DNA from: Xestospongia bergquistia
Taxonomy: Eukaryota; Porifera; Demospongiae; Haplosclerida; Petrosiidae
Assembly: GCA_963965975.1 (NCBI GenBank)
Contig: OZ014416.1
Span: 6,200,001 to 6,264,000, forward strand
Reading direction: 5' to 3'
DNA length: 64,000 bases
In this document: piece by piece, positions 21,789-59,474 of the stretch
Layout: each line of letters begins with the position of its first letter
Position numbering within the stretch: the stretch's first letter is position 1
Program-made: the position numbers and the translations under genes
The notes under the pieces: model-generated
Seen by the model: the letters and a program-made list of their open reading frames with translations, nothing else
The model's database searches: none
Told to the model about the DNA's origin: nothing

Positions 21789-24700
21789 ATGGCAACTGAA
21801 CTTTCAAAGGGAGAAGAGAAAGGAATTGTAAGTTTATTAGTAAACATATACATGTATTTAACATGTTAGTGTATAATCAAAACATTACATATTATTGTTA
21901 AGTATGTTAGTACTTAGTATGTCGATATAAGTACGACAAAATGGATGTAACATTCAATTACATTGTTAATTATATTATTGTCAAAAGTGATACCTGTTAA
22001 AGTTGTCTCGTTGGTTTATTTCAACACCTACATAAAATTATCTATTTTTTACAGCTAGTAAGTTTTGGATAATGTTATAAAGTATTACTAAAGTGGAGAA
22101 CTAGGAACTAGCTAAACAGTCAAATTGTTCCTTTTCTGTTCTTCTTTTTACATATTAGTACAATATTGTGTGAAGTTTTGGTATTTTGATAGGAAAGAGT
22201 TCTTGGGAACAGCTGACTATAAAGCTTCTTTAACACTCAAAGTGTTCATCATTTGAGAGTTACTTACAAATTGTAGCCTTTTATTTGAGTGACATTTATC
22301 TGATTATCTGTGATAATTTTCACACTATTAAGATTCATTAATTTATAACTTACATGTCATAATTAACCACATAACACTATTAATTGTGTAAACAATAGTT
22401 GTATCTACTGTCATTTTATTGATCTGTCTCTATGTGTTCCTAATACTCACATTATTAGTTGAATAATGACTTGTTATTACTATTACTTGTCATATCACAT
22501 GAGAAATAAACAGTAGCAATAAAAGTAGAAGAAAATGCTTAAACTGTTTATTGTTAGTCAGTGTAGTCTTGAATTTGTATAGTCTAATTGTCTTTGTTAG
22601 TTATGTACGTAATCCTAATTACATTCTTTTCTTGTTACATAAAATATTATTATATAAATATTATCACTTTGTGTCTCATATAATACATATAGTTGTGTAT
22701 ATTTACTAATTTGAAATGTAATGACTTTTCTTACTATATAGGATAAGGATAAAGAACTTTGGGAATCATCTAGAGATGGAAACTTAGACAAAGTGAAGCA
22801 GTTACTCCAAAATGGAGCAAACTTCAAATGTCGCTATCATGATGTAAGATCTTATTAGCTTATTATTTAGTCTGTTATTATTTGTGTCTTCTAATTTAAG
22901 TAATTAATTCAAAATATGTAGATTTAATTAGTATTAATTGTTCTTAGCAGCATTTGTATTGTGTATATACAGATATGTAATTGAATGTATTTCAAAATTG
23001 AAATATCTTTCTTCATCATATAGGATACAAGGACTAGACATGTTCCACCTCATATAACACCTCATACTATAGCTTATGTTAACGATCATAAAGTAATAGC
23101 AATTTTTCTTGAAAATGCAGGAGCTATTCCTGATTATGTAAGTGTGTACAAACAAGTATGTAGTTGATGTCAATATTTCTAATTACTAGAATACTCATTT
23201 GTTATATTGATATTATGTACATGTCCATACTTGTATACTACATGAAGATGTGTCCTAGTTATTATCAAGTCCTAATACACATATCAATACATATAATGTT
23301 TATGTCTAGTTTTCTTCATACTACCTTTGATATTCCTAGCTACTAACTATAGCATTAGTTTGAAACATATTATGGTACACTAATGTACAAAATACACATT
23401 AAGGTACAGTATAGAGTGTTAATAATTACCTTTATATAAAATTTATAAAAGAAGTTGTCACAGATTAACTAAACAATACGTGTCACAGTAGACCCACCCA
23501 CATTTATTCCTCAGAAGTATTGTAGTTTAAATTATAGCTATAATAGTACTAGCTTTAATGGTATATTGGAGTACACAGTAAACATACTTTGTTACCTTAT
23601 CTTACATCTTGTTAGAAGACTAAATTTATTTCACATCAATATCAGGAGCTGTTCATATAACAGACACAATATTCATTTTAATAGAGATCCTATCATTACA
23701 TCTACATTTACAATAATATGTAGTCATCTTATTTTGTACAAAGTATTCAGTAAAGCTAATAGACTTGTGTCAAACATTTATACAATAATTATTAGAAGAA
23801 TACATGTATATATAAAGAACTGGGAAATTAATTAGTGGTTTGTTGTACTAGTCACAATTATATGTAATTAAACCCAACACTTGTATATACTGCTGTATTT
23901 ATTATGATGTATATTATCTGTATTTACTTATTATGATTTATTAGAATGAAATTATGTTAGCAGCTGCTGAAAGAGGACTAGTAGATATCATAAAAGAAAC
24001 TATTCAAAAGAAGGCAAATGTACATTATCAGGACAAAGATGGAGTAAGTTATGATTAATTACTAGATAGTTTTGTTGTCATTTATTTGATGATTATTAGT
24101 TTGTGTATACAATATAATATTTTCATGGTAAGTCATATAATACTCAGTGTTATGTGAAGTGAAATATTTTGATTGTTATTAAAATCCTATAGAGCTATAC
24201 AGATATGATGTCGTGATATGATGACATTGTCATCTAGGAATTTTCATGAATAATGTAATAAAACAATAATTTGTGTAGATACTAGCAGTTTAATCCACAG
24301 AGTAATACTCAAAGCCACTGTACAATATACATTGTGTGCTAAATTTAAAATGTTATTAATATTTCAATGACCACATCTGTTTTATATAATACATCTCATG
24401 ATCATATACATTGTGTGTTGAAGAAAGTTCCTGGCTATTCTATATATAAAGAGTTGTTTTATCCATTTAGTCTTATATATGGTTAGCTTTATTGTGAAGA
24501 TTACTTGTTCTACAAGTGTTAGTTTTCCTTAGATAATAGCATTTTAGTATGATTTATGTAACAAAATAACTTGATCAACAACAACACAAAAACAAGTATT
24601 AAATATATATGAATAGAATGTTCTGCAGAGTAATTATAAGAAGTGTTGAATTGTCCATTGGCCATATGAATAGATGCCTGGTTCTGATTGTCTGATTATG

Positions 24701-27700
24701 TTCTAGAATGTTCTGTAGACTAATTATAATGAATGTCGATATATTACATTTTTTATTGAAGTTTTAGGTATAGCTATATATCTATCAAAAAGAAAAACAT
24801 TTTCTAAAATGTGATGTAAATTTAGGGATGGGTGACATCAGTCCAATACATAGAATGGGAACAAAACAGTAGGGATGACAATTAGATCATCCCCATAATA
24901 GCACAGACATAGAATGCAACAATATATCACTGATATTATTGGTGTAAATATAATTGGTGAAAGTACTAAATTGTTTCTACTACCTGTATAATTATATGGA
25001 AATGATATCATTGCCATCCTTACTATTCCTAGACTTTTAAAGATAATGGAGTTCTTGCAGAGAACATTCTATCAGCTTTATTGTTCATATTATAAAAGAT
25101 TCAGATGTTTCCATGCTGTGTAGTACAAAGAAATTGGGACACTAGTTTTTGACACATTGTCCACACAAACTACCATTGTGTCAGTATAGATTTCGTTATG
25201 TACTCTTAGTACTATTTTAAAGCTCACCTAACTGAGAGGTTACAGCCCACAAGCCAAAAAATCATTTAAAAAGTCATCAGTTATATACATATATGGCAAT
25301 TGATAATGGTGAATAACAGTTAATTATAAAGTTAGAAGCTCCTTCATGACTCTCATATACTTCTGACAGTACACAGAAATCATTCTCAATGTCATCCTCT
25401 ACTCTCTATTATTAAGATATGAATATTATCAGTCATAGTGATATTCCAAGTAATGTAAGGAGAGTTATTGGCTAATTGGATTAAGTTTTGAGGTAGATTG
25501 TCTATTATAATAACAACAATGTAAACAAAAGATGTACTTCTAGTAAAAATCAAAGCTATCATTACTGTAGCAAATAACTTGAAATGTTTCTAAGATATGA
25601 ATACTGTCACTAATGATGTAACTGATTGACTTTATATACATTTATCTACTGTAATATTAAACATTTATTAGTAATTAATTTGTAGCCACATTAATTACTG
25701 TTTATTCTTTCTGTAGGATCATCAGACTGCACTGCATTATGCTACAAGAGCAGGACACATTGAGATAGTTCAGTTACTATTAATAGCTAAAGCAGATCCC
25801 AATATTTGTGACAAGGTTTGTATTATGCATAGAGATGGTTCCTATTCCATGTACTTGTGTATTGTGTTCACTCCTTGTACATGTATATAATACTACTAGT
25901 ATGTATTATATCAGTAAAGGATATTATAATAGTATACATGTACAAACATGAACCAGCAACAACTTGCCCCCTGACTGTTGAAACTAAATTGTCATTTAGA
26001 TGTCTTTTATTTAGCCATTATGCTTTCTTAAAGAGTAAGTAAATATTCTATTAAGTTAATAAGCCAAAAGTTATTCTGCATTTGGTTAGTCCAAAACTAA
26101 CAAAATACAATTGTTGTAGTCTACAACCAAAAAATTAGCATATCTCAATTCTAATAAGTTGGACAAAATAAATGGAATGTTTCATTCAAAATCGCATTTT
26201 GGTAATATTAATTATGGAAATGTGTGTGCTTATTATTAAAACAAACAATTGTATATAATTATAGAAGTGTTGTCCATATTGACTTATTAAGGGGTGCTTA
26301 TATTTGAATGTAATGTCACCAATACTACTTACTATATGGTAGTTATTTATATACAGTACAGATGTCTTCTTTGTCTCTTATCTTTTATGAGCAAGGCTTT
26401 GGACTTTTTTGAAACTTTATTGTAGTATTAAACAGTTATTAGTAATTAATTTGTAGCCACATTTTTTACTGTTTATTCTTTCTATAGAAACTTTGGACTG
26501 CTTTGCATTATGCTTCAAATGCAGGACGGATTGAGATAGTTCAGTTACTATTAATAGCTAAAGTAGATCCCAATATTTGTGATGAGGTTTGTATTATATA
26601 TAGAGATGATTCATGTACTTGTGTGTTGCCATGTACATGTATGTAATACTACTAGTATGTATTATATCAGTACAGGACATTATAATAATATACATGTACA
26701 TGTACATCACTAAACAAGACACAGACAACATCAACCAGCAACAACTTATGCCCTGACTGTTGAAACTAAATTGTCATTGTGATGTCTTTTATTCACCTGC
26801 TATACTCTTAGATACTAAGAAGGTATTTTATTAAGTAAATAAGCCAGATCTCCATTATGTCAAGAGATTCTTCTTGATTTCATTAGTCCAAAACTGACAA
26901 AATACAATTGTTGTAGTCTACAACAGAAAGTTTAGCCTATCTAAATTCTTTTATTTGACACTGGTAACATTAACTATTGAGGTAGTGTGTGGCTATTATT
27001 GGAACAAACAACAGAAATGATGTGTACATTGGAGTGGTGCTTATATTAGAATATTAAAATATAATGTCATCTATACTACCTACTATATGGTAGTTATTTC
27101 TATACAATATAAATGTCTTCGTTGTCTGTTATTTTTTATTAGCAAGGCTTAGGAATTTTTTGAAACTTTATTGTAGTATTGAACCTTATTAGTAATTAAT
27201 TTGTAGCCACATTATTTACTGTTTATTCTTTCTATAGAAACATTGGACTGCTTTGCATTATGCTTCAAATGCTGGATGCATTGAGATAGTTCAGTTACTA
27301 TTAACAGCTAAAGCAGATCCCAATATTTTTGATAAGGTTTGTATTAAGTACAGAGATTTTTCTATTCCATGTACTTGTGTATTGTGTTCACTCCATGTAC
27401 ATGTATGTAATACTACTAGTATGTATTATATCAGTACAGGATATTATAATAATATACATGTACATGTACATCACTAAACATGACACAGACAACATAAACC
27501 AGCAACAACTTATGCCCTGACTGTTGAAACTAAATTGTCATTTTGATGTCTTTTATTTACCTGCTATACTCTTTTAGATAGTAAGAAGGTATTTTATTAA
27601 GTAAATAAGCCAGATTTTTTTATGTCAAGACATTCTCCTTGATTTCATTAGTCCAAAACTGACAAAATAACATTGTTGTAGTCTACAATCTAAATTCTGT

Positions 27701-30700
27701 TAAATTTGACACTAGTAAAAATAATTATGTGTGTCTTTGAAGAACAAACATATGTATTTACTATGTTTATATTGAAGAGGTGCTTATAATTATTAGAAAT
27801 GTTAAAATATAATGTCATCAATACAACCATGATGTAGTGGTTATGCATATACAGTACTGGAGATATATCCTTTGTTTATTAACTTAGCAAAGCTTGGCTA
27901 CTATTTAAATTTATTTCAGTATTAACAAGAGGAAGTAAGTGTCCTACTAGTTTAATGTTTGATCAATAGTATCAGGAACACATGAGCATTGTGAATGAGT
28001 GTTCAACTGCTGTTATTTTTGTGCTCTAATCATTATGGTCAGTGATTATTCCAAATAAGGAATATACACTAAGTCCCAGTCTTATCATAAGTACTGTTAT
28101 GTAATGAATATAATTACTATTAGCAAGAACATAATGTTCTATCACCTTTTATTTCCCATTACAAGTTTAATGAACTGACATTTGTGTGGTAAAGTGAAAT
28201 TGGAACACTAGCTTTGACATTGACACCTTGTCCACATAGTCTACCAGTATACCAGTATAGATTTCTCTACACACTCTTAGTACTCTTGTTAAAACACACT
28301 TAGCAAAAGGTTACAGCCCACAAACCTTAAAAATGTAAAAACAATTATCCATATATAGAAATAGATATAGTTATGGAAGTTGTCTTTATGACGCTCATGT
28401 GCCTCTGATAGTACACATTATTTTAGTAATGTGTGATTTTATGTACTATAAATAGGATCTATTGTTATTATTAAACAATTTATTTCATTTTATAGTGGGG
28501 TCATAGTCCACTTTATTTAGCACACTGGTATGAACATGATGACGTTGTTAAGCTCTTGTATTCTTTTGGAGCAAGAGATGTGGACCAAGTTAGAAATGTA
28601 AGTGATAAACATAATATTGTATTTATTGTATATGATAACCTGGATATAGTGATTTTACATGTTATAATAATTATACTATAAACATGACCTAATTATATTG
28701 TCACAGTTATATATAGTATTAATTTAACAGGATGACTTACTTTTGACTTCAGCTGAAAATGGTGATATACATAATGTAAATGTAGCACTTACATCAGGAG
28801 CTAATGTCAATGTTCACCATGGTGGTTTAAATAAGGTTAGTATACTGATTATAATAGATGATTTTTAGTAATAATTGTGATTTAGTAGTCTAAAGTCTGA
28901 AAATTGGAAGGTTCGAATTTTTATATTTTTGGGCAAAATTCTATTATTGTGGAATTGATTTTGTATTTAAAAATTTGAGATGGCAATAAAGTTAAAATAC
29001 TTAACAAACAATTTGATGAACATCCATTTTATTGCACATTAACTTAAAGGTTTATTGATACTAAACTACATATAATATAAACTAATGTAAGAAGTAATAG
29101 CAATGGGATATCTATTATTACTAATATTGAGTCATCATGTAATGAGATACAGGTATTCAGTGACTATCAATAACCTTATATTCTGTGATAATTGATTGAC
29201 ATGATTGAGGCAGTAAACACTGTAACAATCACTATCAACGTTACATGCTTATAATTAAGTAGTGTGATAAAGATCAATGTTTCTGAAAACTAGCACCATA
29301 TTACCTTTAATTACATACTCAGGTTTTATGTGGGAGGCAGATTTATTTATTTTCTTAGGCATAACAATTTATAACTAAGGAAAATTTCTACCTTATTGCT
29401 ATATTCTATGACTGGATAGGCATTTAACAGAAAGATGATACAATGATAAGGCCAAATGCCACAATTATCTAGTGGATAATGGACAATTGGAGTATTTTAA
29501 GTTTGCTAGGATGAATTCTGAAACAATCTGAGATGTTATAAAACACAATCATGTCATATTTGTATATACAAATCAATCACTATTTTTTAAGGATTTTTTT
29601 CCAAAATGTATCATTGACATGTGGAGTTATATTTGCAATAGTAAGCTCAAATCAGTTAAAAAACAATGTGAGAAGATTTGTTATAATAGATTGAACTAAG
29701 TAAATCAACGAAACAATTTTATCCATGACTGTCAAAAGTGGTGAGGCCATTTCCCTTCTAATCATATCATTTTTGATATCTCTGTATACAATATACAATA
29801 TTTAAAGATTGCATGTACTAAGATTTGTTAGTAGGTGTGGTTTATTTTCAGTAGTGTGATAAGCTTTATTAGGAAGAATTTATTACATGAATTAACATTC
29901 TCATTTGACTGCTATCATAACAGGTGATCCTAAATTGTCATTTCAATATCTTTTATTCAAGCTCTGTACTCTTTTAGAGAGTAGTAAGGTATTATAATCA
30001 ATTATTAAGCCCGAACGTATTAGTATCAAGAGTTTATGCTACCTTCTGCTGGTTCAGAACTGAAAATTATAAATTGTTGTAGTCTACAACATAACGTTGA
30101 ATGTATTTCTATTTTAATTAATAATTACTTGACACTAGTAATATGAATTTGAAGCCAGAGAGTACCTATTATTGAAACAAACCAATGTCTGTATTGACAG
30201 AAGTGATGTCAATTTTGGAGAGGGGCCTATATCATTAATGGTAAAATATAATGTCACCAATACTACCTACTATATGGTAGTTATTTATATATGGTACAGA
30301 TGTCTCCATTGTCTGTTATCTATCAGCAAAAAATGGCTTAGAAAATTTTTGAATATTTATTGTAGTATATTGAGTAATTAATTTGTACCCACATTATTTA
30401 CTGTTTATTATTTCTATAGTATCATCGGACTGCTTTACAGATTGCTTCAAGAGCAGGACATATTGAGATAGTCCAGTTACTCTTAACAGCTAAGGCAGAC
30501 CCTAATATTTGTGATGAGGTTTGTATTATGTATATAGATGGTTTGTATTCCATGTACTTATGTATTGTGTTCACTCCATGTACATGTATGTAATACTACT
30601 AGTATGTATTATATCAGTACAAGATATTATAATAATGTACATGTACATGTACATCACTAAACATGATACAGAAAACTCGAACAAGCAACAACTTGTGCCC

Positions 30701-33700
30701 TGACTGTTGAAAATAAATTGTCATTTTAATGTATTTTTTTATTCAACTGCTGTATTCTTTTAAAGAGTAAGAATTAAAAGGTCTTCAATTAAGTTAACAA
30801 AGCCAGATCTCCTTTATGTCAAGGGTTTCTCCTGCACTTTGTTAGTCCAAAACTGACAAAATACAATTGTTGTAGTCTATAACAGAATCTCAATTCTAAT
30901 AAATTTGACAATGGTAAAATTAATTGTGCAGCCAGTGTGTGCCTATTATTAAAACAAACAAATGTGCATATTGACAGAAGTGATGTCCATATATTGAGGA
31001 GGTGCTTATGTTAGCATGAGCATTGTGAATGAGTGTTTAACTGCTGTTATGTTTGTGCTCTAACCATTTTTGAAACATGGTCAGTGATTATTTGTATAGA
31101 AGGAATATATACTAAGTTCACAGTCTCAAGATAAATACTGTTAAGTAATGAATATAATTACAATTAGAAATGATGAGAAAAATGAAGAAACTAAGAAAGA
31201 AGTCTTGTACATTGAAAAGTGTTTAGAGAAATAGGACGTAGAATTTATGGACGTTTTTGTCATGAAAAAGATAAAAACAGTTAAATTACTTAACATTATT
31301 ATTTAACAATACAAGTTTTCTAGCAATAAATGAAAAGTATTGTTAGGCTTGGAAAGACACTGGAGTCTTTTTGAACATTAATGTTCTATCACCATTTTAT
31401 TTCCCATTACAAAGGTAATGAACAGACATTTCCTCACTGTGTGGTTTTGAGGTAGTTATTGTATATTATAATAACCACAGTGTAATAAAGAAATATGTAC
31501 TTCTGGTTATACTCAAAGCTGTCAATATTGTAGCAAATAACTTGTAATGTTGTTATGATATGAATACTGTCACTATGATGTAACAGATTGACTTTATACA
31601 TTTATCTACTGTAATATTGAACAGTTCATAGAATTAATTAGTAGTTACATTATTTCCTGTGTATTCTTTCTATAGAAACGTTGGACTGCTTTGCATTATG
31701 CTTCAAGTAAAGGACACATTGAGATAGTTCAGTTACTATTAATAGCTAAAGCAGAAACCAATATTTATGATGAGGTTTGTATTATGTATAGAGATGGTTT
31801 ATATTCCATGTACTTGTGTATTGTGTTCACTCCATGTACATGTATGTAATACTACTAGTATGTATTATGTCAGTACAGGATATTATAATAATATACATGT
31901 ACATGTACATCACTAAACATGATAAAAACAACGTTTACCAACAATCTTATATAACTCTTGTCCTAACTGTTGAAACTAGATTGTCATTTTGATGTCTTTT
32001 ATTTAGTACCTATACTCTTTAAGAGGGTAAGAAGGTATTCTAATAAGTTAACAAAGAAATATCTTTTATATCCAGAGTTTCTGATGCATTCTGTTAGTCT
32101 AGAACTGCTAAATACAATAACTGTACTGAAACTTTGGCGTATCTCAATTTTAATTAATTAGACAGCAGTAAAATTAATTATGAAGAAAGCGTGTGCTTAT
32201 TATTAGAACAGACAAATGTATGTATGGACAGAAATTTGTTTACATTGGAGAGGTGCTTATGTTAGAAATGTTGAAATAATAATGTTGCCAATAAAGCTAT
32301 GATTTTGTAATTATACATATTAGTATAGGAAATATCTCATTTCTCTTTTCTTTCATAGCAAAGCTTAGCTACTTTTTATAACTTTATTTTATTGTGAACA
32401 AGAGGAAATTGGGATACTGCTAGTTTAATATTTATTCAATAGTAACAAAAACACATAAGCATTGTGAATGATTGTTCAACATCTGTTATGTTTGTGTTAT
32501 TGAAACATGGTCAGTGATTATTCCATATAAGGAATATACATTTAAGTTCACAGTCATAGTGCTTAAGTATGTCACAGAATAAATGAATATAAGTACTGTT
32601 AGCAATGACGAGGAAAATGAAGAAACTATACAAAGAAGTCTTGTACATCAAAGATTGTTTAGAAGAATATGACTTAGAGGTTATGGAGTCTTTTGTAATC
32701 AAAGAGATAGAAACAGTTTAATAACCTACAATTTTATTACACAAGATGAGCTCTCTGGCAGTACATAAAAACTAATCTTAGGCTTGAAAGGATGCTAGAG
32801 TCTTGTTATGAACGTTCTATCACTCTTTTAGTTCCCATTACAGTAGTAATTAACAGACATTTCCTTGCTGTTCAAATATTTTACAAACAATTTAAAGAAC
32901 ATAGAGCACATTAACTTAAAGGTTTATTGATACTAAACTACATATAATACAAACTAATGTAAGAAGTAATAGCAATGGGATATCTATTATTACTAATATT
33001 GATTCATCATGTAATGAGATACAGGTAAACACAATATTCAGTGACTATTAACAAATCTATATTCTTTGACAATTGATTGACATGACTGAGCAGTAAACAC
33101 TCTAGCAGGTCAAACAATCATTATAAATGTTATGTGCTATAAGTAAGACTAGTGTGATAAAGATCAATGTTTCTGAAAAGTAACACATAGTCAACCATAT
33201 TAACTTTAATTACATGGCTTTTTTTACATGGGAAATAGATTTATATATTGTCTTGGGTACTGAGATCATAACAGTTCAAGTTTACCAGGATAAATTCTAA
33301 AGTTATCTGAGATGTTAAAAACCACATTTGTGAAATATCTGTATATTGAAATCAATCAAAATGATTTTAAGGATTTTTTTCAAAATATATCATGTGTGTG
33401 TGGAGTTCAAGTTGATCAAAAATGGAATGTGAGGATGTTTGTTACAACAGACTAACCTAAGTAAATCAAAGAAAGATTTTTCATCCATGGCTGTTGAAAG
33501 TGGTGAGGTCATTTCCTTTCCAGTCTTATCATTTCTGACATCTCTGGATAAGAGATAAAATATTTAACAAATTCCAAGTACCAAACGTCGATAGTAGGTG
33601 TGGTTAATTTTCAGTAACAACAGTATTAAAGAGCTTTATTTGGAGTATTTATTATTGTTTTTGTAGCTACATGTTATAGTAACACCTTAAAAATAATGTC

Positions 33701-36700: not shown

Positions 36701-39700
36701 GACTTTAGACATTGTTTCTTGCAACATTTTGAGTAAATGGAGACAGCAGTTCATGGTACATTCTTTCAATAGTCTAGAGTATTTACTATGTTTCAATTTG
36801 TCTACATTTTGGAGCCTTTTGTGTCCCTTCTGAGTTCCCTCATGACCTCTAGAACAGAATTAACTACAAAACGACACACATCCATAATTGTCCCTCTTAT
36901 GTTCTCTATGTTGATTTGTTTCCAAAGCATATGTATACCAAACATAATAACACAAATTACATCATGTGTTACTATATTAAAGATTTAGACTAACCTTCTA
37001 AGATTTAGGGTATAGAGATATGAAATTTGATGGATGCATAGGAAACAACCAAATATTAGGAGCTCCTAGTTATTTTATAACTTCAATTTTTAATCACAAA
37101 ATGCTAATGCTATATGTGAATCAGTGATATTAATGTTAAATACATAAGGATGTACTGCTTAACTGTTCTTCTAATTTCGGGTGAATACATAAAGAAATCA
37201 GAACTTGCTGAACATTCTGCTTCAGCAGAAGGACTTTTTGGATTCAGTCCCTTAGCCATTTTTTCGCCGATGGTAACACAGAAACACAGCAACATTGTCT
37301 AGACTGTATGAATTTCTAATTAAAACTTCTTGATATGTTACCTGGTAAAGACTTGTGGTGAAAATATTAGTAACTTATGAGCTGTCCGGGAAGTCATATT
37401 TATGCTTTCTTACATTAATCTCTCTCTTCACAATAGAGCACAGCAGCCAGTAATATTGTACACAGAATGCTTGTTAATGAGTAGTGTTGTTTTTCACATG
37501 TATATGCACATGTGTCGTGAGTTATGACTTACTATGGAAGAAAGGACAGTTTGTGTGTTTATATGTTTTTATCATTCTTATATATTACTAGTGATAAAGA
37601 CAGAGCATAGTGATGCAGGCATCAGATACGATGTACACAGAATAAGTGCATGACCCACACCCAACCTACGCGCCGTGTGCAACCATTCCTGGTACGTCAA
37701 TATGAACTACATCTACTCATGGGATGCCTACCAACAAAAAATAGACGCTAACCTTTGAACCTAGATTAGAGTATAAATAGGACTGTTTTTCATTCATGCA
37801 TTTATTATTATGTAGCCACAGATGATGACAGTTGAACTAACTATTGAAACGTTTGGCAAAAAAAAAGTTTTGTTTGATGAAAGATCAAAAAATGAACATT
37901 ACTATAAACTTACTCAAACATCCCGGTCTCTTTCGTGACATTATATTATATTTTTACAATATTTAACATTTAACCATACTCTGAGTATTGTTGACCAGGT
38001 GTTTGTATCTTTTTTCTTCAATATTGAACTTGTGTGTTTTAATGTGTTAGTTTCTTTAGTGACTCAAAAATAATGTCATATAGTGAAAACATGGAATGAG
38101 ATAAAGCTAATAAAGAGAATATGTTACTACTACAGTTTGATTGTCACAAATGTTAGCTGCTATTGGTAGTTTGTATTGAATATGTAGAGTATATTATTCA
38201 GTTACTTCTCATATTATACAATGTAATACAATCTTTTTTCTTCAATATTGAATTTGTGTGTCTTAATGTGTTAACTTGTTTAGTGACTCAATAATAATGT
38301 CTGTTTGACTTTACCTTTCATAACATTAAATTATACTCTTACAATATTTACCATTTGACCATACTCTTGAGTACTGTTGACCAGATGTTTAAAAAAAGCA
38401 ATTTTACACAAGTCAGATATTGTAGCTTAGATACAATATCAATGGACATTATAATAATATACAATTCTTTACAAAGGTAGTTGGGTGTGGTTTATGATGT
38501 GGGGTTCTTCATATGCTTTCATCTTTTTTCTTCAATATTGAATTTGTATGTGTTAATATGTTAACATGGTTAGTGACTCAATAATAATGTCATATAATGA
38601 CATCGTGGAATGAGATAGAGCTAATAAAGAGAATATGTTACTACTACAATTTGTTTGTCACAAATGTTAGCTGATATTGGTAATTTGTATTGAATATGTA
38701 GAGTATGTTGTGTAGTTACTTCTCATATTATACAATGTAATACAATTGTTATGATGATGTGTATTGATGACTGGTTACATTGACTAAATAGTTTACTGTC
38801 TAATAGTTTATGTTGTTTTGTAATTAAATAACTTTGTCTCTTTTGATGTTAGGATAGACGTACACCTGCACACTATGCAGCAATGAATGGTCATGCTGAC
38901 ACAGTAAAATTGTTAATAAAAGTGGGACTAGCTAATGTCAATACTAAAGATTCAGTAAGTCCTTGTAATTGTATTACAAGACATATCATAGTACCAAATT
39001 ATGACCCATCATGTAATTCAAATTACTCAATTTGAGGTTAATAAATCAATAAGACACAGACTTGAGGTGTATTACTTATTCATTTAGAGAAGTCTGCACT
39101 CTACAGTAACTGTTCTTTACCAGCTCTTGATTCTATTAATAAGTTTTTACAAAATATTTGAATAATAATACTAATGTTAATTATTGATGAGCTTAATTAA
39201 GTCATTATGTAAATGTACTAAAAATGGTACTTTCAGTATCTGACTTGTAACACACCTATACAGTACAAGAACTAACAAACAGTATTCAAGGTGTTTGTCT
39301 GGTAGCCACGATACCATTAATCAAGTCAGACATTGTAATTTAGAAATAATATGAATGGACATAATTATGATGTTATTTAATGAAAACCACACATTGCCCT
39401 AAGCAATTTAGAATGAATGGTTTATATGCATTTTCTACGCAATCATTTTGTTTAGGATGCATATCAAATATGGTATCTAGGATGACTAATCAATAAAGCA
39501 CTTGGATACCAAATTTGGTAAACATCCAGTACAAAATGGTAGTGTAGCAACTGCATATATGTAAATATTTAATCAAAATTTCCTCGCACAACATCTGTGG
39601 TTTTCCCAAATAAGTTCACATATAATGATATCACAATTCTTTATAAAGTTCAAACTGTCAAAGAGTGTGGTTTGTGATGTGGTTTTCTTCATGTGCTTGT

Positions 39701-40535
39701 ATCTTTTTTCTTCAATATTGAATTTGTTTGTTTAGTGTTTTAGCTTGTTTAGTGACTCAATAATAACATCATATAGTGACATCATGGAATGATATATAGC
39801 TAATAAAGAGAATATGTTATTTCTACAGTTTGTTTGTCATAAATGTTAGCTGCTATTGGTAGTTTGTATTGAATATGTAGAGTATGTTATGCAGTTACTT
39901 CTCATATTATACAATGTAATACAATTGTTATGATGATGTGTACTGATCACTTGTTACATTGAATGTATTGTTTACTGTATAATAGTTTATATTCTTCTGT
40001 AATTAAATAACTTTGTCTCTTTTGTTTCTAGACAGGATATAAACCTGTACATTATGCAGCAGAGAAAGGTCATGCTGACACAGTGGAATTGTTAATAAAA
40101 GTAGGGCAAGCTGATGTGAACACTAAAGATCCAGTAAGTCAGTAATGTAATACTAGACATAATTGTACCAAATTATGATTAATCAAGTAAAATTAGAATT
40201 ACTTCATTTGAGGTTAATAAATCAATAAGACACATGATTTGAAGTGTATTACTGATTTAATAAGAAACCTGCACTCTACAACAACTGTTCTTTACCAGTT
40301 CTTTATTTTGTTTAAATTTTGCAAAAAATTGAATGATAGTGCTAATGTTTATTAATGATGAAATTAATTAAGTTAGTGAGAGAACGTACAAAAAATATCA
40401 TTTTCATTATATGACTTCTAACAAGGCTATTCCAAATTTCTGAAACTATGTCCAAACTTACTAGATGTTCAATTGATATGTATTTCTCAATCTCATGAAA
40501 ATGTTTCAAATTTCCAACCTCATTTCCCTAGCAAA

Positions 40536-40602
<67 letters not shown>

Positions 40603-43600
40603 TAGTGTGTCAGTGTTACTTATAACACATGACCCAAATTTGTAGCATTATATTTTTAATTTTTTACATTTGCAAAACCTATAAAATACTAATTGATGAC
40701 CTATGTTTAATTTTCATGCAAGTTTTACCAAGAAACAATTTTCAACCAAAGAGTGGTTGATTTAGTCACTGTGGCTATTCTAAATTTGTCAAAAAAATAG
40801 CAAAACATACTAGATGTTCGATTAATATGTATTTAGCAGTCATCGTGAAAAATTAATGAATTTCAAAATCAATGATACCATGAAATCACAACATTCAAGG
40901 AGTCATTTTATCCATAGAAAAAAGTAACAACACATAGTTCACTATAGCAACAGTATGCATGTCACCATAGCAATTCACTATAGCATAAGCATTTATGTCA
41001 CCATAGCAACTGTTACTATAGCAAATAATATGCCATAGCCTTTTCTGATCATTTTTCATCAAAAACCCACAACCTGTGTAAGAATAACACATTAACAAGC
41101 CTTTTCTCACTATAGAGAGTGGAGAAAGACTTCTTGTCAACCATAGTAAATACAAACGTACAATAGAAATACACATGGACTGTATTATCCAATCAAGCAA
41201 CTTATTAAAATCACAGTTTCCTTGCAATAAGAATTCTCAGCACTATGTCCCTCATTGTTCTTATTAGTGAGTAAATACTAAGGATTCATTTATGTCTCAT
41301 TCTTGTATATACTACAATACTTATTTTTTGCATTACTATATATAGTAGTATACATAAGACATGTTGTAGTACGTACAATTGACTGTGAACCCACAAGCAT
41401 TGTCAATTGTTGCATGACATAAATATATCCTTGTTGGCTGGGAATGTACTCATGCAAACAATTTAGAAGCATATGTACGTTAGATGTTCCTAAGATATAC
41501 TGTGTTCCTTAGTTCACTATTACAGCCTTACAGGCATGGTATTTTGAAACAAAACATAACCATTACTACATGTTCTTGGTTGACATAATAATCATGTAAT
41601 GCTGCTTGAATAATAAACTATCCACACACTTCTCCTCTTTGTGTACCATCAAGCATTTGCATTACGAAATTGTAAGTGCAACTCATGAGTAGTAGACTAA
41701 GTAGCAAATATGCCACTCCTGATCACTGTAATCATGTTTGTCAACACTATAACATTGCACTTGCATTGCTTTATAAGTCTTCTTGTTGCTGTGCGTGGGG
41801 GCATAGCAAGGGTTACAGTAGTTTGTCAGTGTGTATATCTGTGTGTGTCTGTTGCCTGGGGAAATGACTTTGAACTGCTTTAACTCGGCAAACACGGCAC
41901 TGGTAGCCACCAAACTATAGTTGATGGTAGCAAAAATTCTGTACTTCTTAAAAATACTGCCAAAAGGAGCATCAAACGAACTAAAAGCTTTAAAAGTCTG
42001 AAAAACCTTTGAAAAAAAGCACAGCTTTCAGGGAAGACTTGAGAATTCGAATAAAAACCTCCTGCTAATGTTCTCATGAAGGTTCGAACATTCGAGAATG
42101 TTCGAACATTTTGGCCGGGTTCAATAGATTCGAAGAAACTTTCATGCCTTCGAATATTTAATAGTCGTGAACAATAATTAACTCCTCCACATTAATTGAT
42201 CACGTGATTAGTGTTTTAAGTTTTGTTAGTGTTGTTAGTTTTCATAGCGTTATGGCTAAAAACCTTAAAAGTGATGTCTGGCAATACTTTTCATAATGAA
42301 ATGCAAGTATCTCGTAGTATTAATCCATTAGCTTGGTGGAAAGAAAATGAACGATTTTATCCAAGTTTGTTAAAGTTTCAAGGAACATTCTAAGTATACC
42401 ATCCACTTCTACATCATCTGAAAGATTTTTTTGTCGCCGGATTAACCATAAGCAAGTTAAGATCAAATTTAAGCTCTGAAAATGTTAATGCATAGTTATT
42501 TTTGAATAAAAACTTGAAAGAGTTTTAACATTTTGTGGTTTTACAATTTATATTTATCCAAACATTTTTGTGGTATCATTCCACCAACGCACGATAGCGA
42601 GCAAACATTCGGTATATTTGAAGGTCAACGCAACAAACCTTCGAAGTGCTATATTCTACATTCATTAAAACTCTACCTCCTACATACAGCTTATGACATT
42701 TTCCAACTTTTTTAAGTGAGGAGTTTTGCAAAAATACTTCTTTGGAAAGTTATGACAGTTTTACTAACTTTTGACAGTTATCTTTGTTGATACATTGAGC
42801 GCGAACTAAAAATACTAGCACCATAGCTGTCATTGGAGAATCACAAACTATGTCTTGATGTTATATTGAATGAATGTACAAAAGAAGAAGGAAATTAAAT
42901 AGACCATTGAATTAATTTTAGTGTTACAATATTCACTTTTAGTGTCATTGTGGAATAGTTACACAGAGACATTTTATATACAAAGGTAGTAATATTTAAT
43001 AATATTTAATATTTGTATAAATACTGAACCACAATGTCATTATTCCACATCAATTACATCAAAATGTGAAGAAATTAAAAAAAATACATGTAACAACTTT
43101 TCCTTCTGTTCAGACTTAGTAAATACAATAATAAATGTTAGACATATAGTATTTCTTCTCCTAATAAACTACAATGACATTCTATAGCCATGTTTGACAT
43201 ATTGGTAGTCTTTATTAACTAGTTAAAGAGGGTAGTCTTTGATATGATCTCTAACATATGTTCATATGTTTGGCTTTGGATTTGCCATGTCAGTCTTCCT
43301 TGTCAGTGTATAATGTACAAGCTTTTTTTTTTAACTGAATCAGTCTTTATATCCTAAACATTCTTAAACTTATTGTAACCAAGTCAATCTGTTTTTTGTC
43401 ATCGTATTACAAATGTAATATATATTCTATTACTTTTTTACAATGCAGTTGTTATTTGTAATTTCTCTGTTTTCATTTTAGTATGGCAATAATCTACTAC
43501 ATTTAGCCTGTCGAAGTGGCAATGAAGACACCATACACTACCTTTTACATAATGTCCAGCTAGATCCAGATCATCGAGTAGCTCTAAACGATCATCAACG

Positions 43601-46600
43601 AATGCCATTAGATTGTATTCCACCATCTAATAGTAACAGATTTCAATTATTGAAATTGTTTCAACCATTTGAACACTGTCACAGAGACTATCTCACAGAT
43701 TCATATGCTAAAGTATTTCTTTGTGGAAAGACAGCAGCTGGTAAAAGCTCACTGGCTGGTATTATCTCTTATCGTGCTATGATGGGACGATATTATGACT
43801 ATGATCCAGAAGAATGCGTTAAAGGTGTTGTATTACAAACCACTGGAATTGACTACCACAGCATTTGTAGTTGGGAAATAGGAAATGTTGTAATTTTTGA
43901 TCTTGCAGGACATGAACAATATTACAGTAGCCATGCTGCAGTATTGGAAACACTTCTGTTGAGATCACCAGCTGTCTTTGCAATTTTAAGCAACCTTACA
44001 GATAAGGAGGAGACAATTAAGAAAGACCTGCTTTTCTGGTTTAACTTTGTTGAAAATGTGAGCATGAAGTTAATTAGCTCAAGTCAAATTCTTGTCATTG
44101 GAAGTCATGTTGATGAACTGCCCAGTGAAAAAGACTTTGAGCCTTTTGTAAATAATGTTGCAAATTCATCTGTTCGTTTTCAGAATTACATGGGGTTTTT
44201 GCCAATAGATTGTCATCGACCAGGAGGAAAAGGTGTCAATGAGGTTTTGAAAAAATTAAATGAGTGCTGTGAAGCTGTTGTAGACAAAAATGATAAAATG
44301 AGCTACCACTGCCACTGTCTAAATTCTTATCTTCAACAGTTGGAGGTTGTTGCTATTAGCCTAGATGAGCTATGTTCCAAATTAATGGAACTAAATGAGC
44401 CTTGTCTTTTGACAGATATATCCATAGTTTTGGAGTTTTTGACCATTCTTGGAAGCAAGGGTCTCATCTTGTTTCTGGCTAACTCATGGGTGATAATTGA
44501 CAAAAAAGCTCTCTTAACTGAAGTAAATGGTGTCTTATTCAATAAAAGCATTGATTGTCAGCGTAAACCAGTTGCCAGTAATACTGGTATAATGCCTATC
44601 TCTTCACTAGCGAACCTTTTCAAAAACCACAACACTGATATGTTGATTCGTTTTTTAACAAGTCTACAGTTTTGTCATCAAATAGACTTGTATGCAGTTT
44701 CTAGTATCATTAACACTGTACCATCTGATGACTTCCCTATTAGTAAAGATGAGAAATTTTTATTCTTTCCAGCACTTATTACAGAAGACAAGGCCACATC
44801 AATCTTTGAAAATACATATGGATTTGGTTGGTGCTTGTGGTGTCCTGACCCACAACAATTTCTCTCCATGCATTTTCTTCATATGCTTCTTCATCACTTA
44901 GCTTTTACTTCCTGTCTTCCTCCCCCCGAGGAAATTGATGTTACTTATAATGCAGCAATCAAGGAATTTGACCGAGTCTGTACTTTGTGGAAAAATGGTG
45001 TTTATTGGAAAGAGGAAAAGAATAATATTGAAGTGATTGTTGAGGTTACTGAAGCCAACCGATGTGTTACGGTTCTCATATCTCACAGCAGTTTAATTGA
45101 AAGTTATCACCTCCGTGCATCAATCATCAAAGAAATTCTTAATCTTAAAAATGAATTATGTCCATGTACTTCAAAACAGTTTGTTATTCCACCTGGTAAT
45201 GTTAAGGATATCATGGATAAGGAACAGAGATATCGTATTGTCTATGCACTAAGAGAAGTTGCTAAGGGAGTACTAGTGAAAGGAACTGCTACTTCCACTA
45301 ATGATGAAAGAGTTGCTGTCCAATTAGTTGTTGGTGAAAAGGAACCATACCTCTGTATTGCCCCTCTTGTAATCAAAGCTCTCTTTACTGACACCAACAA
45401 AGATCTGCCACTACCAGATCACTATGTCCAACATATAGAAGAAGTATGTAGGGAGATCATGGCCCTCTATCCATCATCAGATTTTACCCACCTCTCTGTA
45501 AGAGAACATCTCAACAAATTCAGTATTTTTGCTGGACGTAATCCTTTGGTAAGTTTACATTCATTTTCTCTTAACAGTTTGTCTATGGACTTGTTTATTT
45601 TCTCTACATAGAGTATACCTTCTCCACCAATAAAAGATGAAGTAATACGAAGATTATCAAAACATGTTAAGACAAGAACAACAAAAGGTTCTAATTATAT
45701 CAGTTCTCTCTTGTATTTGACTTAATTATTATTACAGATTTTAATATTCCTGTTGCCAGACCTGACAAAGAGATGTTGTCATCTAATAACAGAGGTATGT
45801 CTACTTGTCAAGAAAATTTCATGTTCCAATAATTATTTTATTTATTCTTTAATTTTCTTATTTTTATAGCTACTACTTTTATATTTGATTACTTAATTTA
45901 TTGTTATATATTGTTACATTGCAGGTAGTAATGATGAGCCAATGCTAGTAAAGAATAGTGGCCAAACATTTGAATTTAGTCATTTCCCAAAATTATGTAC
46001 GTTAGGCAAGTTTATATGACAGTTCTTTATCTTATTGCACTTACAGTTGAAAGGCCTACAAGACGTGAAGTTTTACGGCAATTAGCTTTTATCAATCATC
46101 AATGGCGTAACATTGGTAATGGCCTTGGAGTGAGTTACAGTCACCTTCAAGGTTTAGCTCAATGCAATGATTCAAATCAAACCAGACTTGATCATGTTAT
46201 TCAGAAGTGGTTGGACATGAATGGTCAAGGTGAAGGTGCTCCTGTCACATGGAACACAATCTTGGATGTTTTAAAGGAACCACCTGTTCAGAATGTAAGT
46301 CGAGGAATGAAGATATATGAGTACTTGAAACAAAGTTCTGTACAACAGGATACTCAAAGTAAGTGGCCACTATTAGCTAGAATATGATCTTAAGTTGTTA
46401 TTATTTAGACTGCTTGCATAATAATACAATTGTCAACTACATGTTGACCACATTGGAGGTCACTTTAATTTAAGAGAAATTTTATCCTACCTTTGTAAAA
46501 TTAATAGAGTGACTATTTCACTTGATGAGTGCTGTGACTAGTCCTGTGTAAATTCCTTTGTTTGCAGTATGGATTATCATACAGATAATATTTCAATTTG

Positions 46601-47454
46601 ATATCTAGTACAGTGTTGATATAATAAGATAACATATTGTCATACCACATACTTATTGTTATTAATTGCAAGTGGTCAAAAACTCACTGGTTGTTTAGTC
46701 CAAAATGTATTAAAGTTCACATTGTGTATTGAAATATAAAACTACAGCATCTTTATTTGTCATGTCATTGTATATTATGCATATCTTTTTATTATAGGTA
46801 GTAACAGCGAACTTGTAGGAGAACAGTCCTCTGGAGCTCATGATAATAATGGTAGATATATACACTAGTATATACTATGATCCTTGTTGTACTATGATTT
46901 TATTAGGAGGTGTGGTACATACAAACAAAAGCATAATTGATGATCCAACTGATGGTAAGTTACTTTATCCATATCATCTAACCTGTACATGATTACATAA
47001 TAATTACTAAAATGACTATTTGTTTTTTGCCCTTCACAAAATAGATGCTGATAAATATATTTGTGAGTCTATTACTGAAGACATTAACACTGTTAGTGGT
47101 AAGTCTGTACAGATGACGTCATTACATCATTGAATATATACAGGTAAATGTGATCCATCAAAAATCTTTCAAGCTCATTCTGCTACTCTTTGTGATATAA
47201 TTGTGGATGCTAATCCTCATCGTTTTGTTAACATACTTGTCTCAGCTGATCTGTTACCTCAAGATGTTAAGGAAATTATTAGGATTACAACTGATGTATA
47301 TGATAAAGCTGATAAAATTGTGGAGAAACTACAGAGACTGATAGATGATGATAAACACCCAATTGAGTTGCTGAAGAAAATTTGTGATTTTCTTTTAAAA
47401 CAAACTGACAAGACTTTAAAGGACATTGGTACTAAAATGATGAGTCAACTATAG
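21789..47454 (+). CDS. Ankyrin-repeat / Roc-COR / Death / CARD-like protein (DAPK-type Roco without kinase), 23 exons
   Basis: Exons read from splice sites: 21789-21827, 22742-22843, 23024-23137, 23945-24043, 25717-25815, 26488-26586, 27238-27336, 28496-28597, 28731-28835, 30420-30518, 31676-31774, 34468-34566, 38853-38954, 40032-40133, 43482-45548, 45612-45687, 45738-45794, 45925-45996, 46047-46358, 46798-46851, 46907-46954, 47045-47098, 47144-47454. All junctions are GT-AG. The first 15 exons are phase 0 and the later ones phase 1, giving 1,470 codons with no stop. The protein has about 14 ankyrin repeats (residues ~16-490), Roc with P-loop GKTAAGKS (~535-542), DLAG (593-596) and SHVD (661-664), a COR-like region, a Death domain (~1211-1310) and a C-terminal helical domain (~1367-1469). 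Known Roco proteins are GTPases, and DAPK has ANK-Roc-COR-Death behind a kinase; no kinase is seen here. The start ATG at 21789 opens a 13-codon exon. A role in Death-fold signalling is inferred. Alternative splicing is untested. Confidence 0.88.
22742..24043 (+). CDS. N-terminal ankyrin exons (3 diverged repeats)
   Basis: Three phase-0 exons (22742-22843, 23024-23137, 23945-24043) encode 34, 38 and 33 residues. The first reads as a clear ankyrin helix pair (ELWESSRDGNLDKVKQLL, then NGAN). The second (ITPHTIAYVNDHKV) and third (EIMLAAAERGLVDIIKE) are diverged but keep the helix-turn-helix spacing. Their introns do not resemble each other, unlike the later ankyrin units, so these are probably the older part of the array. 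The third repeat is followed by a 1.67-kb intron in which I see no further exon. Confidence 0.82.
25717..27336 (+). CDS. Three near-identical 33-residue ankyrin exons
   Basis: Exons 25717-25815, 26488-26586 and 27238-27336 are each exactly 99 nt, phase 0, one ankyrin repeat. The shared core is ALHYA, then G-x-IEIVQLLL, then A-K-x-DPNI. Upstream they share a polypyrimidine tract ending in TTCTTTCTATAG or CTGTAG. Downstream the donor is GTTTGT and about 200 nt of intron is nearly the same in each. Variable residues (KLWT/KHWT/DHQT at the start; N/T/R in the turn) fall where ankyrin ligand contacts usually vary. They arose by duplication of an exon together with its flanking intron. Confidence 0.9.
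28496..28835 (+). CDS. Two diverged ankyrin exons inside the array
   Basis: Exons 28496-28597 (34 codons; SPLYLAHWYEHDDVVKLLYS) and 28731-28835 (35 codons; DDLLLTSAENGDIHNVNVAL) are separated by a 133-nt intron. Both are phase 0 and carry ankyrin spacing, but they lack the IEIVQLLL core and the intron repeats of their neighbours. They interrupt the homogeneous series, so the duplicated exons were probably amplified on both sides of an older pair. Confidence 0.85.
29480..30400 (+). repeat. Dispersed ~0.9-kb intronic repeat, copy 1
   Basis: Contains TTTGCTAGGATGAATTCTGA, GTGGTGAGGCCATTTCC, TAAATTGTCATTTCAATATC and ATTGTTGTAGTCTACAAC. Similar sequence lies at ~33,260-34,430 and, in the other gene, at ~55,780-56,530. 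No ORF. Confidence 0.7.
30420..34566 (+). CDS. Three further near-identical ankyrin exons
   Basis: Exons 30420-30518, 31676-31774 and 34468-34566 are again 99 nt, phase 0, with the IEIVQLLL or NEIVQLLL core and donor GTTTGT. They belong to the same family as the exons at 25.7-27.3 kb. The 1.2-2.7 kb introns between them hold copies of the same downstream intron sequence, including an ACATGTACATGTACAT run. A further dispersed repeat lies just upstream of the first (29.5-30.4 kb) and third (33.3-34.4 kb) of these exons. Confidence 0.9.
33260..34430 (+). repeat. Dispersed ~0.9-kb intronic repeat, copy 2
   Basis: Same order of landmarks as copy 1 (GTGGTGAGGTCATTTCC, TAAATTGTCATTTCAATGTC, then AGTACTCTTTTAGAGAGA), with an extra ~200-nt stretch at 33,690-33,900. 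It ends just before the ankyrin exon at 34,468. Confidence 0.7.
34800..36990. other. G+C-richer block inside an intron, unidentified, probably old mobile element
   Basis: Composition changes at ~34,800 and back at ~37,000. Several short open frames occur (for example GLGMATLPSDSAITQFNDDM) but stops break all of them, and I recognise no domain on either strand. It accounts for the unusually long 4.3-kb intron between ankyrin exons at 34,566 and 38,853. Confidence 0.4.
37735..37915 (+). repeat. Dispersed element end, inverted copy at 51,895-52,075
   Basis: Contains AGTATAAATAGGACTGTTTT and GATGATGACAGTTGAACTAA followed by TTGAAACGTTTGGC. The reverse complement is at 51,895-52,075. Just upstream (37,590-37,735) the sequence is G+C-richer than its surroundings, consistent with the tail of a retroelement; the family is not identified. 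Confidence 0.6.
37990..38230 (+). repeat. Exonless copy of the intron unit preceding the ADTV-type ankyrin exons
   Basis: Matches ~38,500-38,750 and ~39,690-39,930 (ATCTTTTTTCTTCAATATTG; AGCTAATAAAGAGAATATGT; TACTTCTCATATTATACAAT) but breaks off before the acceptor and exon. Confidence 0.75.
38853..40133 (+). CDS. Pair of duplicated ankyrin exons (ADTVxLLIKVG type)
   Basis: Exons 38853-38954 and 40032-40133 are 102 nt each, phase 0, and encode very similar 34-residue repeats with HYAA, GHADTV and LLIKVG cores and NTKD at the end. Both are preceded by similar intron sequence of about 340 nt, distinct from that of the earlier ankyrin family. A third copy of this upstream intron at ~37990-38230 has no exon after it. 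They are the last regular repeats before the Roc exon. Confidence 0.88.
40541..40601. repeat. (TA)n microsatellite, ~60 bp
   Basis: Uninterrupted TA dinucleotides in the intron before the Roc exon. Confidence 0.97.
40997..41010 (+). promoter_or_regulatory. Perfect RFX X-box-like site
   Basis: GTCACCATAGCAAC fits GTNRCC-N2-RGYAAC. A one-mismatch copy lies at 40,961-40,974. Both are in a short repeat-rich stretch of the intron before the Roc exon; function is unknown. Confidence 0.3.
42082..42107. promoter_or_regulatory. Perfect 12-bp inverted repeat with heat-shock-element-like pattern
   Basis: Arms GTTCGAACATTC and GAATGTTCGAAC around GA. It contains alternating TTC/GAA blocks as in heat-shock elements, but it lies close to the hAT remnant and may instead be transposon end sequence. 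Confidence 0.4.
42252..42528 (+). pseudogene. Internally deleted hAT transposase remnant
   Basis: ATG at 42252 opens MAKNLKSDVWQYFS, typical of a BED-finger N-terminus. It continues within ~40 nt into the C-terminal hAT dimerisation region: NPLAWWKENERFYPSLLKF, then IPSTSTSSERFF, then LTISKLRSNLSSENVNA and LFLNKNLKEF. Stops and frame changes break it. The catalytic centre is gone, so the copy is an internal-deletion derivative inside the last large intron of the ANK-Roco gene. Confidence 0.75.
43482..45548 (+). CDS. Large exon: last ankyrin repeat, Roc GTPase and COR-like region
   Basis: This 2,067-nt exon (689 codons) starts after TTTTAG and ends at TTTG|GTAAGT. It begins with a final ankyrin-like repeat (NNLLHLACRSGNEDTIHYLL), then a short linker. 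The Roc domain follows: P-loop GKTAAGKSSL, switch II-type DLAGHEQYY, and SHVD where small GTPases have NKxD. The remaining ~470 residues have the size and position of a COR domain but no short motif I can name. Keeping Roc-COR in one exon while the ankyrins are spread over one exon each is striking. If the intron after it is retained, the frame stops at 45609-45611, which would give a form without the Death domain. Confidence 0.88.
45612..45996 (+). CDS. Linker exons between COR and Death domain
   Basis: Three short exons (45612-45687, 45738-45794, 45925-45996) join in phase 1 and encode a polar linker with no domain (starts SIPSPPIKDEVIRRLSKH). The introns are only 50, 130 and 50 nt. The first donor, AAAAG|GTTCTA, is weak. 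Without that splice the frame stops about 45 nt later, so this junction could be an alternative end. Confidence 0.7.
46047..46358 (+). CDS. Death-domain exon
   Basis: A 312-nt exon in phase 1 on both sides. The translation has the Death-fold pattern: REVLRQLA, then WRNIGNGLGVS, then LDHVIQKWLDMNG, VTWNTILDVLKEP and a final helix IYEYLKQ. These match the usual W-x-x-L-A/G-x-x-L-G and W-x-x-x-x-G-x-x-x-T-W-x-x-L spacing. It is clearly paralogous to the second Death domain of the downstream gene (59475-59781), which shares LDHV, VTWxTIL and the YxYLKQ end. Death domains bind other Death domains, so an oligomeric signalling complex is likely. Confidence 0.88.
46798..47098 (+). CDS. Short acidic linker exons
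   Basis: Three exons of 54, 48 and 54 nt (46798-46851, 46907-46954, 47045-47098), all phase 1 at both ends. They encode Ser/Asn/Asp-rich linker between the Death and C-terminal domains. Because every one is symmetric, any can be skipped without changing frame. The downstream gene uses similar phase-1 linker exons. Confidence 0.75.
47144..47454 (+). CDS. C-terminal helical domain, CARD-like, with stop codon
   Basis: Last coding exon, phase 1, ending TAG at 47452-47454. About 100 residues, all-helical in appearance: HSATLCDIIVDANPHRFVN, ADLLPQDVKEIIRI, KADKIVEKLQRLI, HPIELLKKICDFLLKQ, TLKDIGTKMMSQL. The length, hydrophobic spacing and LLPQ turn resemble CARD or another Death-fold subfamily, but no diagnostic residue settles which. 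A GTAAGT-like donor directly after the stop and an acceptor at ~47789 suggest an intron in the 3' untranslated region. Confidence 0.75.
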
Positions 47455-56809: not shown

Positions 56810-57326
56810 GTATGTATTTAATGTTTTATACACATAGAAGCTATAGAGACCATTTTATATTTTAGAATCAACCTACAGTTTGTGAAGACTTAAGTGACAT
56901 TACAAGTAGTTTTGTCTTAACTACCGTTTCATATCCAATCACTGTTCAAGATGATGAAAGTCTTTCACAGTATACAGACATCAGTTCATCAACAATCAAA
57001 GGTGAAATTGATATTAATTATAATTATAACCATGACAGCATTATCTTTGCCCCTGCATCTTCCTTAGCCAGTAAGATCGATTAAATATGGGTATTAATAA
57101 TTCATTGTTAAGTATAGTAATTAGCCATTATAGTTTCTGAAGGTACTAAACCATATAGATTTATGATTGATTTGTCTGCGCAATTTTTCCTCCCTCCACT
57201 CACCAATTTAGTTATGACTTTTCTGATAATCGCTAATAATAAAGATTTACCATCTTGTGTCTAATGACTTTAGATTAAAGATATACTATAATCAGTAGGT
57301 CAGTATTATGTATCACTTTTATACAG

Positions 57327-57766: not shown

Positions 57767-57816
57767 GCAAGTAATAAATTAATAAATATCAACTCATATA
57801 TTCTCTTTTTATGTAG

Positions 57817-58365: not shown

Positions 58366-58407
58366 GTAAGGAGAGTTAATGACGTTTTATTATTATTTAT
58401 TTGGCAG

Positions 58408-59305: not shown

Positions 59306-59474
59306 AGATTCAGTAAATTGTTAGGTTTGGTTTTATCTATTATGTATATATAGATCACGAAGAACTACCATTCACAGGAGATGACCACACAGAGGAAATG
59401 AATGACTTTCCTAAATTAAGTAAGTTATGACACTCTACAATAATAAGTATTCGTTATCTTAATAAAAATTATAG

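Follow-up and report, generated by a model that had tools for sequence, protein, structure and literature searches.

The question raised by this locus is whether a sponge gene that joins ankyrin repeats, a GTPase and Death-fold domains encodes a relative of the DAPK proteins or an intracellular receptor of another kind. Proteins of the DAPK family, which belong to the Roco class, carry ankyrin repeats, Roc, COR and Death domains in this order behind a kinase. The window analyzed here is the whole 64,000-nucleotide stretch of DNA (G000:C6:6200001-6264000), and family searches were performed in the 146-Mb genome, which consists of 21 contigs.

Gene model and splice boundaries

The gene was rebuilt by hand from the sequence as 23 exons in one frame, extending from 21789 to 47454 and encoding 1,469 amino acids followed by a stop codon (Table 1). 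All 22 introns have GT-AG ends, exons 1-15 end in phase 0, and exons 16-22 end in phase 1. Some introns are 50-60 bases long, and the G+C content of the window is low (0.28-0.35 in 4-kb windows), traits that, together with a rich set of Death-fold genes, would fit a sponge. Since the junctions were chosen by hand for continuity of the frame, and the donor of exon 16 is weak (GTTCTA), the open frame alone is not an independent proof of the gene. An alternative acceptor for exon 16 at 45614 was rejected because it breaks the frame, which is kept by 45612.

Independent support for the model comes from the paralogues, in which the splice boundaries are kept. Both ends of exon 15 were found at the matching codon in all three paralogues compared, and the acceptor of exon 19 was found at the matching codon in all eight distinct loci (nine Death rows, with L012 and L034 counted as a single gene). 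For exon 23, 16 loci with the C-terminal domain (CTD) were checked, a set that leaves out L019, L020, L023 and L028, among others; the acceptor was at the matching codon in every one of them, and a stop codon directly followed the domain in 14. The gene is confirmed as real and not a chance open frame, and its exon number and limits agree with the phase-consistent 23-exon model of the original prediction. The architecture, ankyrin-Roc-COR-like-Death-CARD-like, is well supported, and from it we infer the function discussed below.

Table 1. Features of the Roco gene in the window.
Feature	Position	Strand	Basis
Exon 1, proposed start codon MATELSKGEEKGI	21789..21827	+	Stop upstream, model
Exons 2-4, degenerate ankyrin units, phase 0	22742-22843, 23024-23137, 23945-24043	+	Pfam Ank together, L035 homologues
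Exons 5-7, closely similar duplicated ankyrin exons	25717-25815, 26488-26586, 27238-27336	+	
Exons 8-9, ankyrin units	28496-28597, 28731-28835	+	Pfam Ank together
Exons 10-12, more copies of the exon 5 type	30420-30518, 31676-31774, 34468-34566	+	
Exons 13-14, ankyrin units	38853-38954, 40032-40133	+	
Exon 15, last ankyrin unit, predicted Roc GTPase and COR-like region	43482..45548	+	
Predicted Roc GTPase within exon 15	about 43710-44114	+	Motifs GKTAAGKS, DLAG, SHVD
Exons 16-18, linker, phase 1	45612-45687, 45738-45794, 45925-45996	+	Similar pieces in several paralogues
Exon 19, Death domain	46047..46358	+	Pfam Death in homologues, conserved acceptor
Exons 20-22, linker, phase 1, least well supported	46798-46851, 46907-46954, 47045-47098	+	Some paralogues resemble it in exon 20
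Exon 23, C-terminal CARD-like domain (CTD) and stop	47144..47454	+	CARD profile, conserved acceptor

Search for an upstream kinase

An in-frame TAG is located at 21738-21740, 48 bases 5′ of the ATG, which makes a coding exon further upstream unlikely, although AG dinucleotides lie in between. In the three forward frames from position 1 to 21.9 kb no Pfam family was matched at E<=0.1, in a scan that small split exons can escape. There was no Pfam match in the 6.1 kb 5′ of exon 2 in the paralogue L035, and 3.9 kb from the 5′ part of the paralogue L034 contained just ankyrin repeats and a weak transposase match, its first exon lying perhaps further upstream. The absence of a kinase had been predicted originally, and none was detected in the 21.8 kb 5′ of the gene. 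That kinase exons were overlooked, and that the gene is a regular DAPK plus one extra domain, seems extremely improbable: small kinase exons could have slipped through a frame-by-frame scan that covered 21.8 kb upstream in the forward frames, and exon 1 could be spliced to something upstream, but the stop codon just 5′ of the ATG, the lack of any Pfam family at that threshold, and the 5′ regions of L035 and L034 (the latter with its proviso about the first exon) all argue against it. The label "DAPK-like" given to the gene originally holds for the order ankyrin-Roc-COR-Death, and is limited to that domain order, not implying a special kinship with DAPK over other Roco proteins.

Ankyrin array

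The spliced N-terminus matched Pfam Ank with 272 bits and 10 significant stretches. Against a cut-off of 21.1 bits, exons 2-4 jointly scored 23.9 and exons 8-9 jointly scored 26.3, and exons 2-4 are 55-61% identical to the homologous exons of the compact paralogue L035. When single repeats were scanned, exons 2, 4, 8 and 9 scored 4-6 bits, which is the level of the best chance matches, and no match was reported for exon 3. The total of 14 units therefore counts degenerate ones; the array of about 14 repeats proposed from the sequence is recovered in this sense, with 10 repeats reaching Pfam significance.

Exons 5, 6, 7, 10, 11 and 12 are recent duplicates, with 80-92% DNA identity among one another. 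Their flanks are similar as well (67-95% identity over the 60 bases upstream and 43-95% over the 60 bases downstream, ungapped), which indicates that the adjoining intron was copied along with the exon. Exon 9 resembles exon 4 (none of 1000 shuffles was as good). Exon 8 shows no significant resemblance to exon 3 (107 of 1000 shuffles were as good), and for this reason a block duplication of exons 3-5 to give exons 8-10 is not claimed.

Within these six copies, the variation is concentrated at the ligand-contact positions, which we take to be the sites that are randomised in designed ankyrin proteins to obtain binding: the mean number of residue types per position was 2.71 at contact positions versus 1.54 at the others (permutation p = 0.0023, for a test picked once the sequences had been viewed). 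The dN/dS values ranged from 0.17 to 6.7 with a median of 0.94, over 15 non-independent pairs with approximately 21 synonymous sites each. The variation at contact positions would fit a diversifying binding face, and would also fit relaxed constraint, with which a dN/dS near 1 is likewise compatible.

Roc GTPase and COR-like region

Pfam searches with the window copy alone are too weak to decide on the Roc, COR, Death and last domains, and the assignments were made from homologues and profile comparisons. The Roc region of the window copy matched Pfam Roc with E 0.0011 and 19.6 bits, under the cut-off of 27, and L081, a member with 47% identity, passes this cut-off at 31.5 bits. When compared as a profile with seven sequences matching Pfam Roc (mostly Rab-like by look), the region scored 66.8, versus 22.4 for the best of 40 column shuffles, and the comparison with the LRRK-like set L073-L075 gave E 1.5e-8. 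Residues G82, G87-K88-S89, D140, G143, S208 and D211 of exon 15 were invariant in 12 of 12 sequences. A PDB search with exon 15 found the Roc domain of LRRK2 at E 0.09, and a PDB profile search with the Roc-COR alignment A3 gave no match. The region is thus a predicted Roc GTPase with P-loop, DxxG and SHxD-type motifs, which places the protein in the Roco class, as the motifs GKTAAGKS, DLAG and SHVD had first suggested; the score far above the shuffles and the homologue over the Pfam cut-off bear this out.

In terms of the COR-like region, the results were mixed. The local comparison scored 19.5 (maximum of the null 19.9) and, after realignment, 21.1 (maximum 19.3), while the end-to-end comparison scored 14.9, above all 60 shuffles (mean 3.6, maximum 11.2). 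Neither exon 15 of the window nor three paralogues showed a Pfam COR-A match. A COR-like region downstream of Roc, as proposed originally, is predicted with weak to moderate support: the end-to-end comparison was above the null, and the local comparison was negative or barely above it.

The genes L073-L075 of the comparison set lie at G000:C8 7.28-7.30 Mb and are about 95% identical mutually. L073, the sole one of the three scanned with Pfam, contains LRR, Roc, COR and kinase domains.

Death domain and C-terminal CARD-like domain

The Death exon of the window copy matched Pfam Death with E 5e-4 and 20.5 bits in one scan and with E 3.2e-4 and 21.2 bits in another, just under the cut-off of 22.6. 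In an alignment of 16 sequences that includes the window copy (A2), Pfam Death was matched at E<=0.1 by 14 of the 16, with a best value of 1.8e-8, and the Death domain proposed for this exon is upheld.

Exon 23 of the window copy had no significant Pfam match. Among the 26 CTDs of alignment A1 (the window and 25 of 43 distinct CTDs), Pfam CARD was matched at E<=1 by four, not including the window copy, with a best value of 0.0025; other Pfam families matched at most three. The CTD was compared by hhalign with a CARD profile made from 15 exons of the same genome, each over the Pfam CARD cut-off, and this gave a probability of 96.9% and a score of 56.3 over 86 columns. As controls, the CTD against Death scored 14.4, the reversed CTD scored 12.8, and the best of 60 shuffles scored 15.5. 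By inspection, the 22 CARD places located in the genome and the 150 CTD matches listed have no position in common. Single-sequence AlphaFold2 modelling of exon 23 yielded four helices with pLDDT 66.9, and a Foldseek search with this low-confidence model found no Death fold and nothing at E<=0.001. The Death exon, modelled as a control, was also poor (pLDDT 54.8), so the exon 23 model does not discriminate. PDB searches with exon 23 and with the CTD profile A1 gave nothing meaningful. The last domain is best described as CARD-like, a predicted divergent CARD by profile comparison with no confident fold model. The second Death-fold-like domain of the original prediction is thereby supported at the level of the CARD profile; structure prediction, a check proposed originally, did not show a six-helix fold, in a model of low confidence for which the Death control was poor too.

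In L048, Death and CTD are within one open frame. A CTD was also found 3′ of a frame whose ZU5 match is weak (L040:77-811; 0.0016, below the cut-off), which suggests that the CTD may serve outside Roco genes too. In the window itself, a neighbouring gene at 57299-59695 (+) has a ZU5-like exon (E 0.0093, below the cut-off) and a Death domain (1.6e-5), and its exon at 59447 is Death-like by eye, without a Pfam match. Two transposase-like frames are present on the reverse strand, at 53280-54191 (DDE_Tnp_1_7, 7e-54) and at 49415-50278 (Transposase_21, 2.4e-18).

Gene family and selection

The window gene is a member of a large, recently expanded and partly clustered family. The Roc-COR exon 15 query found at least 61 full-length places, the window included, in the best 65 of 245 candidates; 47 of them have 60-100% identity and 14 have 47-49%. 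An in-frame stop was present in five of the 61, and eight further rows of this search are pieces of broken C13 copies. The CTD query gave at least 150 matches, with 23 besides the window being full-length at 68-82% identity (two with a stop), and the Death exon query also gave at least 150. A genome search with Pfam COR-A gave at least 150 matches, many of them within open frames some 700 codons long and LRRK-type genes included, and by inspection none of those listed overlaps the 61 Roc-COR places.

The domain order is kept among the close members. For the 47 close Roc-COR exons (window included), a Death exon was found within 3 kb downstream in at least 38, a CTD within 5 kb downstream in at least 43, and both in at least 35, with Death first in 35 of 35. 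Among the matches listed, Death and CTD were both close by in just one of the 14 members with 47-49% identity. The paralogues L034, L035 and L036 contain ankyrin, Roc, COR region, Death and CTD in the same order as the window gene; the identity to them is 77-81% for exon 15 and 64-80% for Death, and the CTD of the window gene is 79-80% identical to those of L034 and L035 and 46% identical to that of L036. The compact gene L035 has about six units of the ankyrin type (that of exon 15 included) versus 14 in the window gene.

On C11, a cluster contains seven CTDs that are 73-79% identical to the window CTD, with Death exons that are 32-35% identical. The Roc-COR exon of L037, the sole one examined there, has no recognisable BLAST similarity to that of the window (E 0.55). 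Since the CTDs are close while this Roc-COR exon is dissimilar, one Roco subfamily may have passed the CTD module to another. The COR-A genes at G000:C11 6.37-6.47 Mb form a cluster, and several of them carry Death and a window-like CTD, a possible case of module exchange. On C13, four near-identical Roco genes (G000:C13 3411457, 3632913, 3822671 and 4032953) are spaced by about 0.2 Mb, and close to each of them is a broken copy on the opposite strand, an arrangement that may reflect segmental duplication or an assembly artefact.

The Roc-COR exon, the Death domain and the CTD are under purifying selection, with dN/dS values of 0.255-0.408 for exon 15 (five relatives), 0.369-0.469 for Death (three relatives) and 0.344-0.489 for the CTD (three relatives). 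These values bear on the possibility that the paralogue in the window is decaying and the functional members are elsewhere. Decay does occur within the family, as indicated by the stops in five of 61 full-length Roc-COR matches and by the four broken C13 copies, and in the window copy the donor of exon 16 is weak. However, the window copy has no internal stop, its 22 introns are all GT-AG, and its Roc-COR dN/dS is 0.26-0.41 against five relatives, so that its decay appears very improbable.

Proposed function

With slightly better than even confidence, we propose that the protein is an intracellular sensor of the Roco type with an ankyrin recognition arm, a Roc-COR switch and a Death plus CARD output. 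The variable ankyrin array would bind a target, the Roc GTPase and COR-like region would act as a nucleotide-controlled switch, and activation would expose the tandem Death and CARD-like output, which could recruit Death-fold adaptors or caspases. Across the family, the switch and output would be kept and the ankyrin array would be varied through exon duplication. Ligand binding, switching and recruitment of death or immune partners are the activities to be expected by analogy with DAPK, LRRK2 and NLRs, and the family may act as internal danger sensors.

The same domains could belong to a DAPK-like scaffold or cell-death regulator with a role in housekeeping signalling, in a family that grew for dosage or development and not for recognition. 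The domain order, which is that of DAPK behind its kinase, and the purifying selection on switch and outputs are consistent with such a role, but a large and partly clustered expansion and variation at ankyrin contact positions are atypical of a housekeeping gene, and we regard this explanation as rather unlikely. A recognition role could also concern self and non-self instead of microbes. The length of the ankyrin array varies among paralogues (14 units in the window gene, about six in L035), and one report (PMC8195603) counts sponges among the animals in which allo-incompatibility involves cell death. Against this, the model showed no membrane segment by eye, and an allorecognition receptor family seems improbable.

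Comparison with known systems

Like DAPK, the window protein has an ankyrin array, Roc, a COR-like region and Death in this order (with weak to moderate support for COR); unlike DAPK, it has no detected kinase, it has an extra C-terminal CARD-like domain, and it exists in many copies. The predicted Roc-COR switch, with a Roc that matches by profile, is shared with LRRK-type Roco proteins such as L073. In contrast to the window protein with its ankyrin, Death and CARD-like domains, L073 has LRRs, COR-A and COR-B recognised by Pfam, and a kinase. NLR receptors with CARD or Death domains combine a repeat array, an NTPase switch, a Death-fold output and lineage-specific expansion. The window family has these four traits too, but its switch is a predicted Roc-class GTPase and not NACHT or NB-ARC, and its output is C-terminal.

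In the sponge Amphimedon, the available portion of one report (PMC8195603) describes 357 TRADD-N proteins; for the majority of architectures, Death-like domains and ankyrin repeats belong to the most frequent C-terminal domains, and bacterial AP-GTPase/COR conflict systems are described there as well. Like the window family, the Amphimedon expansion is a large one that joins Death-fold domains to ankyrin repeats, but it is built on TRADD-N, and a Roc-COR protein that has both Death and CARD is not described in that portion. The accessible part of another report (PMC5094078) presents Roc/COR proteins of the sea anemone that contain TIR; one of them, NG3, has Death and a kinase in addition. NG3 resembles the window protein in joining Roc/COR to Death, and differs, as far as that part describes it, in having a kinase, TIR and SH3 and no ankyrin array or CARD. 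TLR-like and MyD88-like proteins with Roc/COR are found in Aplysia (PMC9334734). From these sponge-, anemone- and Aplysia-related reports it follows that immune-like proteins of invertebrates are already known to include Roco domains. The ankyrin-Roc-COR-Death-CARD architecture was absent from the available portions of PMC12408332 and PMC2575513, and no description of it was found in a search confined to the open full-text literature. Within that literature, the domain combination and the scale of the family appear to be new.

Tentatively, the family may represent a class of intracellular receptors that has so far not been described in animals. In this class Roc-COR would take the place of the NACHT or NB-ARC of NLRs, the ankyrin arm would be diversified by duplication of single-repeat exons, and the output would be a Death-CARD pair; in this one genome the close members would number in the tens and the distant ones possibly in the hundreds. 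If this is true, animals own a further version of the broad repeat-switch-death sensor design, built on a Roco GTPase, and the family would also inform how ankyrin exon duplication yields new specificities. The family would then also provide a natural test bed of many members for how Roc-COR drives Death-fold signalling, a question still pending for DAPK that bears on LRRK2 as well.
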